This document shows, in pieces, positions 126-30,818 of a stretch of 37,280 bases of DNA (position 1 is its first letter; each line of letters opens with the position of its first letter). The position numbers and the translations under genes were made by a program. Below the pieces are notes generated by a model. That model was not told the DNA's origin. It was given only the letters and a program-made list of their open reading frames with translations, and did no database searches. Source of the stretch: Oscillospiraceae bacterium (lineage in GTDB: Bacteria; Bacillota; Clostridia; Oscillospirales; Acutalibacteraceae); the NCBI GenBank assembly GCA_902780565.1, contig CACZGD010000008.1:1-37280 (forward strand), read 5' to 3'.

Positions 126-162
126 GATATAACCACCGCCCGGCTCCATTTCCGGGAACGAT

Positions 163-204
163 CCCTGGCCCCTGGTCCCTGGCCCCTGGTCCCTGGTCCC
201 TGGT
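163..204. repeat. Heptanucleotide tandem repeat, six CCCTGGY units
   Basis: Six uninterrupted 7-bp units read CCCTGGC, CCCTGGT, CCCTGGC, CCCTGGT, CCCTGGT, CCCTGGT. The array lies just past the terminator of the minus-strand membrane protein gene. Exact 7-bp periodicity recurs at several other intergenic sites in this window with other unit sequences. Confidence 0.9.
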
Positions 205-6508: not shown

Positions 6509-6656
6509 GCCGGGCGAAGCGGAGGGGGTGCGGGTGCACGGGATAGTATAAGTTAAAAAATAAAAAAGAAAAAAGAAAAATTTCATTCCCTCGTCTTTTC
6601 ATTCCCTCGGCCCTCGGCCCTCGGCCCCCGGCCCTTTGCCCTTTGCCCTCAAAAAA
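6509..6656. repeat. Low-complexity intergenic block with seven heptad units
   Basis: Right after the stop at 6508 come a GCGAAGC-type mini-hairpin and the word GGGTGCACGGGATA, which recurs at 7536. An A-rich stretch follows, then heptads at 6604-6652: CCCTCGG three times, CCCCCGG, CCCTTTG twice and CCCTCAA. The array ends five bases before the ATG at 6657. There is no REP hairpin here. Confidence 0.85.
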
Positions 6657-7653: not shown

Positions 7654-8028
7654 GGTAGTACGGCTGCCCACAGCCGTTCCTTTGCCTTGACGGTGGAGGG
7701 ATGAATCCCGGCGGGAGCTGTTAACGGGAATCGGATAGGTTTTGCCCCGGGATGATTCCCTCCCCGGCAAGGGGAAGAACGCGGAATGCGGAACAGATGA
7801 CCGAATCCGGCGATTCGACGAATAACCTAAAAGATACATTGTTTCGTTATATGGAAATTTCGTCGACCGAACGATCCCCGTTTCCCGGGGACATCTCCGT
7901 CGGTTGCCCCTTGCCGGGGAGGGAATCATCCCGGAAATATACTTGGATCGGCCGCCACTGCCTGATCCCGCCGGGATGCCCCCCTCCCGCAGCAAGGCAC
8001 AAAAACGGCTGTAGGCAGCCGTACTACC
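7654..8028. mobile_element. REPIN-like compound palindromic element, copy B (375 bp)
   Basis: Two inverted arms (7654-7777 and 7907-8028) surround a core of about 129 bp. Each arm begins at its outer end with GGTAG and a hairpin of stem ACGGCTG/CAGCCGT; the loop is CCCA on the left and CCTA on the right. Inside lie further small palindromes: GGGATGAATCCC, GGGATGATTCCC and CCCCGGCAAGGGG. Arms and core match copy C at 12327-12700 in the same orientation and nearly the same length. There is no credible gene inside, so any movement would need a protein supplied in trans. It lies between two convergent genes. Confidence 0.8.
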
Positions 8029-8152
8029 GTTGTGATTGGAACCTTGTTCCGTACTCCCCGACCGGAACCAATAGTTTAATCGCGGCGCAGCCGCAGCCGC
8101 AACCGACATCCAACACCCAACGTCCAACATCCAACATCGCCGCAAGCGGCGC
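8029..8152. repeat. Right flank of element B with CAACATC heptads
   Basis: This stretch contains a GGCGCAGCCGC-type palindrome and five exact 7-bp units at 8104-8138 (CGACATC, CAACACC, CAACGTC, CAACATC, CAACATC). The hairpin GCCGC-AA-GCGGC follows and abuts the stop codon of the DUF4037 gene. Confidence 0.85.
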
Positions 8153-11374: not shown

Positions 11375-12131
11375 TCGTCTCTGCCCTCCCCGTTTTGTCG
11401 TTGATCTCGATCAGCACGCAGTCCATGGCGGCGGGCCCGGCTGCGCTTTCAAACCGCACCGGCAGCCCGGTGCGCATTTTTGCCGTGGCGGTCTCGACCG
11501 AAACGCCGAGCACCGAGTGGACGGCCCCGGTCATGCCCACGTCCGTGATATACGCCGTGCCGCCCGGCAGGAGCCCCGCGTCCGCGGTCGGCACGTGGGT
11601 GTGGGTCCCCACGACCGCGCTGACGCGCCCGTCCAGATAATAGCCCATCGCCTTCTTCTCGCTCGTCGCCTCGGCATGGAAATCCACCAGAATGGCGCGT
11701 ACGCCCTCGGCGGCAAGCTGCTTCACGGCGGCGTCCGCCGCGTCGAAGGGGTTTTCGGCGTAGTCCATATAGACCTGCCCCATCAGGCTGACGACCCCGA
11801 GGCGCAGCCCGCGCTTTTCCACCACAAGGATCCCGCGCCCGGGCGCCGAGCGGTGGAGGTTCACGGGGCGCAGCGCCGCCGAATAGGGCTCCTCCAGCAC
11901 GCGCTCGAACTCCGGGCGGCGCAGGGTATGGTTGCCGCCGGTGACGGCGTCCGCGCCGGACGCCAGCAGATGCTCGTAGGACGCCGGGGTGATCCCGTTG
12001 CCCCTCGCGGAGTTTTCGCCGTTGACGACGCAGAAGTCCACCCCCTGCTGCCGCCGGAACCCCGGCAGCACGCGCCGAAGCTGCTCGCTCCCCACGTCCG
12101 ATACCACGTCCCCGATCATTAATACGCGCAT
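11352..12131 (-). CDS. ymdB: YmdB family metallophosphoesterase
   Basis: The 259-residue protein has the full TIGR00282/YmdB motif series: MIGDVVSDVG (Asp8), VNGEN (Asn37-Asn40), GGNHT (Asn67, His68), DFHAEATSEK and GTHTHVPTAD. These residues bind a dinuclear iron site. B. subtilis YmdB hydrolyses cyclic nucleotides such as 2',3'-cAMP and affects biofilm and sporulation decisions; it lies next to rny there. The same two genes occur here in the same order and strand, but 721 bp of repeat DNA separates them and ymdB has its own promoter at 12173-12201. The ATG follows GGAGGGGG. The stop overlaps the next gene by 23 bp. Confidence 0.93.
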   Translation of the reverse strand: MRVLMIGDVVSDVGSEQLRRVLPGFRRQQGVDFCVVNGENSARGNGITPASYEHLLASGADAVTGGNHTLRRPEFERVLEEPYSAALRPVNLHRSAPGRGILVVEKRGLRLGVVSLMGQVYMDYAENPFDAADAAVKQLAAEGVRAILVDFHAEATSEKKAMGYYLDGRVSAVVGTHTHVPTADAGLLPGGTAYITDVGMTGAVHSVLGVSVETATAKMRTGLPVRFESAAGPAAMDCVLIEINDKTGRAETIERFTVE

Positions 12132-12172
12132 GGCGTTCCCCCTCCGTTTCTGTGGGCGTATATATATAATGT

Positions 12173-12201
12173 ATTATACTTCACTTCGGGACGGATTGCA
12201 A
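12173..12201 (-). promoter_or_regulatory. Sigma-A promoter for ymdB operon
   Basis: On the minus strand TTGCAA, a 17-bp spacer and TATAAT. It lies between the repeat element and the ymdB start, which supports independent transcription from rny. Confidence 0.75.
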
Positions 12202-12204
12202 GAG

Positions 12205-12326
12205 GGAAAGACGCGGGTGCGGCGCGGCGATGTTGCGTGTTGGATGTCGGATGTCGGTTGCGCGCACAGCGCGCGATTGAAATATAGGTTCCGGTCGGGG
12301 ATAACGGAAGGGGCGGCGGTCATAAT
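12205..12326. repeat. Left flank of element C with GATGTTG heptads
   Basis: Units at 12229-12263 read GATGTTG, CGTGTTG, GATGTCG, GATGTCG, GTTGCGC. A GCGCGC-ACA-GCGCGC-like palindrome and about 60 bp of less structured DNA follow, up to the first REP hairpin. The heptads are the reverse complement of those at the other end of the element (12772-12799). Confidence 0.85.
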
Positions 12327-12700
12327 GGTAGTACGGCTGCCCACAGCCGTTCCTTTGCCTTGACGGCGGAGGGATGAATCCCGGCGGGATCTGTTAACGG
12401 GAATCGAAAATGTTTGTCCCGGGATGATTCCCTCCCCGGCAAGGGGAAGTACGCGGAATACGGTGAATATGACCGAACCCGGCGAATCGACGAATATCCT
12501 AAAATATCATGGCATCAAAATAATACCTGATCCGTCGCCCGGACGCCCTGCATCGCTGGTAACATATCCGTCGGTTGCCCCTTGCCGGGGAGGGCATCAT
12601 CCCGGGATATTCACAAAATCCGTCATCCGTCAACATATTCCGCCGGGACGATACCCTCCCGCAGCAAGGCACAAAAACGGCTGTGGGCAGCCGTACTACC
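12327..12700. mobile_element. REPIN-like compound palindromic element, copy C (374 bp)
   Basis: Arms at 12327-12449 and 12578-12700 are inverted repeats of each other and match the arms of copy B. Outer ends are GGTAG followed by ACGGCTG-CCCA-CAGCCGT. The core (12450-12577) is also homologous to that of copy B, sharing words such as GACCGAA, GGCGA and CGACGAATA. No gene is evident inside. The element sits between rny and ymdB. Confidence 0.8.
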
Positions 12701-12799
12701 ATGAAATTGGCGCGCCGTCCCGTATCCCCAACTGCGCTCTGACCATCACCATATTATAATCGCGGCGCAACCGACATCCGACATCCGACATCCAACATC
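12701..12799. repeat. Right flank of element C with CAACATC heptads
   Basis: After about 60 bp of unremarkable DNA and a GCGGCGC stretch, four 7-bp units at 12772-12799 read CGACATC three times and CAACATC. The array abuts the rny terminator. Confidence 0.85.
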
Positions 12800-30653: not shown

Positions 30654-30818
30654 GGTAGCACGGCACCTCAGTGCCGTTCGATGCATTTGTTATTTTTCAA
30701 ATACCTCCGGTCCGAACCCGATCGGATATACCTTGTCCCGTTAACCCCGACCGGGTTCTGACCGGAAGGGTGTTTGAAAATATCATTGTCCCGAACGGCA
30801 CGGAGGTGCCGTGCTACC
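30654..30818. mobile_element. REPIN-like element, variant D (165 bp)
   Basis: This is an imperfect palindrome along its whole length. The outer 27 bp of the two ends match at 26 positions in inverted order. Each end reads GGTAG then a hairpin with stem ACGGCAC/GTGCCGT; loops are CTCA and CTCC. Inner arms (30695-30726 and 30737-30781) are also complementary. It lacks the 375-bp core of copies B and C. It lies between convergent genes, 73 bp past the mnmE stop. Confidence 0.82.

Follow-up and report, generated by a model that had tools for sequence, protein, structure and literature searches.

Outward-facing GTAG hairpins and a RAYT-like gene in a genome of the Bacillota

REPINs are common bacterial repeats that have been described chiefly in Proteobacteria. 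In the stretch of DNA analysed here (the window, 37,280 bp, C8:1-37280), hairpins headed by GTAG occur in inverted pairs, and the question they raise is whether these pairs are REPIN-type mobile elements and, if so, whether the genome encodes an enzyme that could move them. The assembly amounts to 3.29 Mb in 240 contigs and is 97% complete. The host had been taken for a Firmicute on the sequence alone, and this fits, since its nearest named relatives are Clostridia.

Hairpins, their pairing and their covariation

A pattern search for GGTAGYACGGC returned exactly seven sites in the window, and every hairpin listed by the sequence-only reading was found at the position it gave; only the spans had been drawn too long, each by 1 to 3 bases, as GTAG plus hairpin measures 24 bp with the leading G included. 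When one mismatch was allowed, the window contained nine sites, compared with a mean of 1.12 and a maximum of four in 100 shuffles. Across the genome, 78 exact sites were counted (36 on the plus and 42 on the minus strand) versus 21 for the reversed control pattern, so that the copies are indeed numerous; 15 of the 78 sit no more than 450 bp from the edge of an analysed stretch. A perfect 7-bp stem followed in 71 cases, comprising 31 ACGGCTG and 40 ACGGCAC hairpins, while the stem was absent from six of the remaining sites and the seventh was cut by a contig end. By manual tally, the loop is CCCA in 30 of the 31 ACGGCTG hairpins and CTCA in 36 of the 40 ACGGCAC hairpins. Thus 66 of 71 loops match the consensus of their family, and the earlier statement that loops vary freely was mistaken. 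A variant, GGTAGTACGGCATGAT, keeps the GTAG head without a hairpin (L033 18055, L034 12778, L036 1729, L053 9811 and L042 8513) and lies mostly near ACGGCAC hairpins.

Six of the seven hairpins in the window form three pairs with GTAG pointing outwards, as had been proposed, and all three pairs of the window lie outside identified genes. Two of them belong to the ACGGCTG family and are long. The 375-bp element (7654-8028) is bounded by hairpins at 7654-7677 and 8005-8028 and carries an inner inverted repeat, conserved among copies, whose 28-nt arm at 7747-7774 (plus strand) is 100% complementary to its partner at 7907-7934 (minus strand). The 374-bp element (12327-12700) has hairpins at 12327-12350 and 12677-12700 and a 30-nt inner arm at 12417-12446 (plus strand) that is 97% complementary to 12578-12607. 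The third pair, of the ACGGCAC family, spans 165 bp (30654-30818, hairpins at 30654-30677 and 30795-30818). A single ACGGCTG hairpin, recognised by pattern and stem, lies on the minus strand at 102-125; its partner is not visible because the window begins at contig base 1. An excess of outward over inward pairs was also seen in 40 stretches of the genome, where 37 pairs of neighbouring hairpins less than 600 bp apart comprised 18 with GTAG outwards, two with GTAG inwards and 17 in tandem.

Nine outward ACGGCTG pairs were available for comparison, eight of them 374-375 bp long and the ninth 405 bp. They are 80-92% alike (mean 86%) and therefore do not point to recent spread. The 25-column blocks that are fully conserved comprise the two ends and two inner blocks, the latter containing the inner inverted repeat. 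When the element at 12327-12700 was folded as single-stranded DNA, the result was -117.6 kcal/mol (z -12.8), a strong fold that is expected from its inverted arms. In this genome, repeated modules extend beyond GTAG to the outside of the elements, and in one relative (G433, record RUG11941) five of six comparisons of 200-nt flanks scored above all 30 shuffles; the mobile unit may therefore reach past GTAG.

Tandem arrays of 7-bp units adjoin the REPINs of the window (162-204, 6604-6650, 8106-8138 and 12771-12799). Such an array occurs within 300 bp of 40 of the 78 REP sites in the analysed stretches; 66 arrays were counted in 343 kb of REP-bearing stretches, as against four in 220 kb without REPs. 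Relatives carry arrays of different 7-bp units in the corresponding gaps.

Compensatory changes in the stems had been read as covariation. Within the window this amounts to one difference between two repeat families that was copied many times, and that part of the claim does not hold; in a larger set the claim is sustained. Counting hairpins picked for perfect pairing would be circular, and we therefore used the seed GTAGYRCG, chosen blind to pairing, and removed duplicate RAYT loci. An exact complementary arm followed the seed in 86 of 118 instances in stretches of this genome and in 38 of 54 instances in 17 RAYT loci of relatives, whereas after seven other heads the arm paired in 2 of 471 and 1 of 25, respectively. 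Ten different 5' arms were represented in the two seed sets together, with complementarity kept.

Insertion sites

The 374-bp element occupies the gap between rny and ymdB, which is 721 bp long here, 134 bp in the relative G011 (YmdB 78% identical) and 48-334 bp in others. No GTAG hairpin was present in this gap in any of the 20 relatives in which both genes were found (ymdB was matched in 24 relatives, four of which were dropped because rny was not on the stretch, and G005 gave no ymdB match). The extra DNA absent from relatives covers approximately 12229-12799, its edges being set by eye. It is edged by inverted heptamer-rich arms (12229-12263 and 12765-12799) and has the rny terminator on one side and, on the other, a promoter-like sequence that precedes ymdB, both likewise recognised by eye. 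To the eye, the TTGCAA/TATAAT promoter-like sequence beside ymdB (window 12100-12260) was left intact by the insertion.

At mnmL, comparison was limited to the two relatives that share the convergent neighbour; the gap is 632 bp here versus 86 and 0 bp in these two, which have no such hairpin. In the gap downstream of mnmE, four of 20 relatives (G011, G020, G022 and G012) have GTAG hairpins that belong to other kinds, from which it seems that this gap was entered more than once. At this place in G011 (L229), the hairpin GTAGGGGCGCAG occurs on both strands and is perhaps another REP-related family.

RAYT genes and their hairpins

The sequence-only reading had recognised the layout of REP/REPIN elements and suggested a search for a Y1 TnpA-REP gene flanked by the same hairpins. 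One such gene was found, just downstream of copies: the only Y1_Tnp match in this genome (G000), which lies outside the window (C58:819-1340, 173 aa). Together with copy number and outward pairs, it supports that layout. Upstream of the gene, the GTAG ends of ACGGCTG hairpins fall at 350 and 612, and a copy lacking the stem lies at 727; no hairpins were found downstream. The top NCBIfam match of the protein is NF047646 (REP-associated tyrosine transposase, E 3.8e-16), with 59.3 bits at a cut-off of 80, and it fits this model far better than the IS200 model NF033573 (21.7 bits, cut-off 55). NF047646 exceeded its cut-off in just four of 395 genomes of the order and may therefore be tuned to other RAYTs. 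At E<=0.001 it matched in 157 of the 395, and also in six of 14 control genomes, so that weak matches may represent IS200; judged from such matches, the frequency of RAYTs in Bacillota is uncertain. A phmmer search against PDB gave nothing significant (E 0.12-0.58, with 4er8 at 0.22). An AlphaFold2 model of the protein (pLDDT 78.7) was submitted to Foldseek, and 4er8, a RAYT with its REP hairpin, came first by E-value (2.7e-6); IS200-type structures followed closely, some with a higher TM-score by target length. The HUH, WQ and Y..NP motifs read NHVH, WQDDYYD and YIRDNP.

A scan with six RAYTs yielded 368 confirmed loci, of which the best 80 were kept (79 labelled Bacillota). Among these best 80, a perfect hairpin headed by GTAG lies within 500 bp of 41, compared with 11 loci for the farther flanks, and 39 have no GTAG hairpin within 500 bp by this strict test. 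Near RAYT genes, 85 of 353 GTAGs (24%) begin a hairpin, as against 715 of 146,843 positions overall (0.5%). By raw counts of hairpin heads near RAYTs, AAAA (99) exceeds GTAG (89), while by loci (41) and by rate GTAG is ahead of AAAA. Three hairpin types could be distinguished: GTAG followed by a pyrimidine and a 7-bp stem, GTAG with an 8-bp stem and GTAG with a 9-bp stem. With L115 excluded from these groups, the types require three changes on the RAYT tree (four if it is included), the shuffled mean being 15.5 and none of 200 shuffles as low; in these sequences the type of hairpin is thus shown to follow the RAYT tree. The type seen in the window occupies one branch (SH-aLRT 96) and therefore reflects one event. 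In its clade, all nine of nine rows have D, E or F ten residues past the W of the WQ motif, whereas rows with other hairpin types have R there in 26 of 29. Equivalence of this position to R104 of the E. coli RAYT is by motif alignment only, with residue numbers and GTAG contacts according to the covered parts of PMC6006769 and PMC8266576.

A RAYT match was obtained in 16 of 59 genomes, this one included, and in 13 of the 26 genomes of the genus. The genus contains several different RAYT-hairpin pairs, and its other RAYTs adjoin short REPINs or sit between them. Hairpins of the genus were counted with the pattern GTAGYRCGGCN{6,10}GCCGY, whose variable gap may count one place twice (as exemplified by G001). 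This genome gave 103 matches (control 4), and the other members of the genus whose RAYT falls best in the clade of the window gave 66 (G011), 16 (G025), 206 (G004), 61 (G022), 137 (G003) and 35 (G015, a fragment). In the other 19 members the counts were 410 (G018), 293 (G020), 19, 10, 8, 4, 2, 2, 1 and ten zeros. The REP-rich G018 and G020 had no Y1_Tnp match at all, which counts against a strict link between hairpins and RAYTs. Gene loss or incomplete assembly may account for this; REPtrons may be missing through deletion, according to the part of a 2013 survey consulted (PMC3733652).

From these results, it is very probable that the elements in the window are non-autonomous mobile elements of the REPIN type that depend on the resident RAYT. 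Each element ends in two outward hairpins headed by GTAG and one pyrimidine. The RAYT, a Y1 HUH enzyme, would bind the GTAG-headed hairpin on single-stranded DNA and its tyrosine would nick beside it, upon which the strand would be moved or copied elsewhere, mostly between genes. The same RAYT would serve the ACGGCAC family too.

Two other explanations have to be weighed against this. The elements might be MITEs moved by another transposase, with the RAYT nearby by chance, and their length, their further inverted arms, the continuation of repeats outside GTAG and the two REP-rich genomes without a Y1 gene would all suit such an origin. Yet chance proximity would hardly produce GTAG hairpins at about half of the best 80 RAYT loci with a type that tracks the RAYT tree, nor a RAYT gene inside the element itself, as observed in G011 and G433, and we regard this explanation as improbable. 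Slightly less probable still are immobile regulatory hairpins, that is, terminators or mRNA stabilisers under selection at the RNA level. The intergenic position next to rny, ymdB, mnmL and mnmE and the strong fold of the whole element could be cited for them. On the other hand, the window had no Rfam match at gathering score, the 374-bp element is missing from the rny-ymdB gap of all 20 relatives, and what stays constant is the GTAG head, outside the stem, together with the loops. A secondary effect of the elements on RNA may nevertheless exist.

When set against the literature covered (PMC3733652, PMC6006769, PMC8266576, PMC3116915, PMC8049555 and PMC2817692), the system found here is a REP/RAYT one, a kind already known; the host group is not listed in these sources, and the elements are unusually long. 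The REPINs and RAYTs of Pseudomonas, Escherichia and Stenotrophomonas likewise show a GTAG foot, a hairpin and outward inverted pairs, one RAYT gene that the same hairpins adjoin, and different RAYTs with different hairpins. What differs here is the Bacillota host, the element length, close to 375 bp and including conserved inner inverted repeats (in the covered part of the 2013 survey, PMC3733652, dimer spacers are mostly 20-100 bp), the 7-bp stem separated from GTAG by a single pyrimidine and, by motif alignment, changed residues where the E. coli RAYT contacts GTAG; in relatives, moreover, gene-less elements share arms with a RAYT-carrying one. As in REPtrons, the RAYT has REPs on one or both sides (in G011 and G433 it is enclosed by two outward ones), but long arms common to the gene-carrying and gene-less elements of one genome set the present case apart. 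IS200/IS605 elements and their gene-less derivatives resemble it in the Y1 HUH fold, the hairpin ends and the occurrence of gene-less derivatives; they differ in that here the RAYT model fits best and a GTAG foot, inverted ends and one gene copy are found. Bacillota are not listed for GTAG repeats in the portion of PMC3733652 covered, a term search of the accessible text of PMC2817692 gave neither 'Firmicutes' nor 'Clostridi', and the open-access literature searched yielded no account of RAYTs together with GTAG REPs in Bacillota. Such hairpins with RAYTs are now placed in Bacillota.

Gene-carrying elements and a possible origin of long REPINs

Two relatives harbour elements that enclose a RAYT gene. 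In G011, the gene lies inside a 1045-bp element whose 44-nt ends are 98% alike, and the same genome has four elements that lack the gene: two that are complete, at 350 bp, and two that are partial. One arm of these gene-less elements matches the last ~90 bases of the 1045-bp element at 93-97% identity; in the two complete ones, the other arm matches the first 118 bases of that element at 86-88%. In G433, the RAYT element measures 890 bp and two gene-less copies measure 275 and 274 bp. These copies match positions 1-124 (88-89%) and 751-890 (92-94%) of the RAYT element, and about 11 bases between the arms are the same in both by eye. Both arms are thus common to gene-less and gene-carrying elements in two species. 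In the genome of the window, hairpins occur solely upstream of the RAYT and no shared-arm pattern was demonstrated; nor is a RAYT gene between outward hairpins a general layout, as it was seen in just four of 81 loci, one of which (L096) ends in two hairpins that differ from each other.

The gene-less copies of G433 look like a deletion derivative that spread. Their shared arms and identical middle fit a proposal from 2011 that REPINs stem from REP-flanked transposons and have their source in the ends of an IS200-like ancestor, with deletion as the presumed direction of change. The long elements are most readily understood as kin of a RAYT-enclosing element whose gene was lost by internal deletion, as the two relatives suggest. 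The reverse order, in which REPINs are no deletion derivatives and the REPINs of G011 and G433 already existed when they acquired a RAYT gene by insertion, appears unlikely, although less so than the two explanations discussed above: two cases do not fix a direction, the enclosing layout is rare and includes the unlike ends of L096, and other RAYTs of the genus are found beside or between short REPINs. Against it stands the structure of the gene-less copies of G433, which, with both arms and a shared middle (by eye), have the classic appearance of deletion derivatives.

We can only tentatively suggest, at somewhat less than an even chance, that the missing step in how REPINs originated has been preserved in rumen Clostridia, namely RAYT-enclosing elements that shed gene-less, multiplying REPINs, along with a recognition that changed jointly in enzyme and hairpin. 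Under this joint reading, long gene-less REPINs would arise through internal deletion and then multiply; in the clade of the window, a base would have been added after GTAG, and the enzyme would have lost the two residues, H and R, that in the E. coli RAYT face GTAG. The coexistence in one genome of elements with and without the gene but with the same arms, found in two species, provides material for the 2011 proposal; with such siblings and several RAYT-hairpin pairs in one genus, both the origin of REPINs and the rules of recognition therefore become testable.

A tract of ~2.1 kb containing a RAYT and hairpins is 100% identical between G016 (C115:1-2100, L283) and G021 (C25, L284), two species whose YmdB proteins are 84% identical. 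Beyond the shared tract, identity drops to 66-91%, and the tract reflects either a recent exchange or an assembly mix-up.
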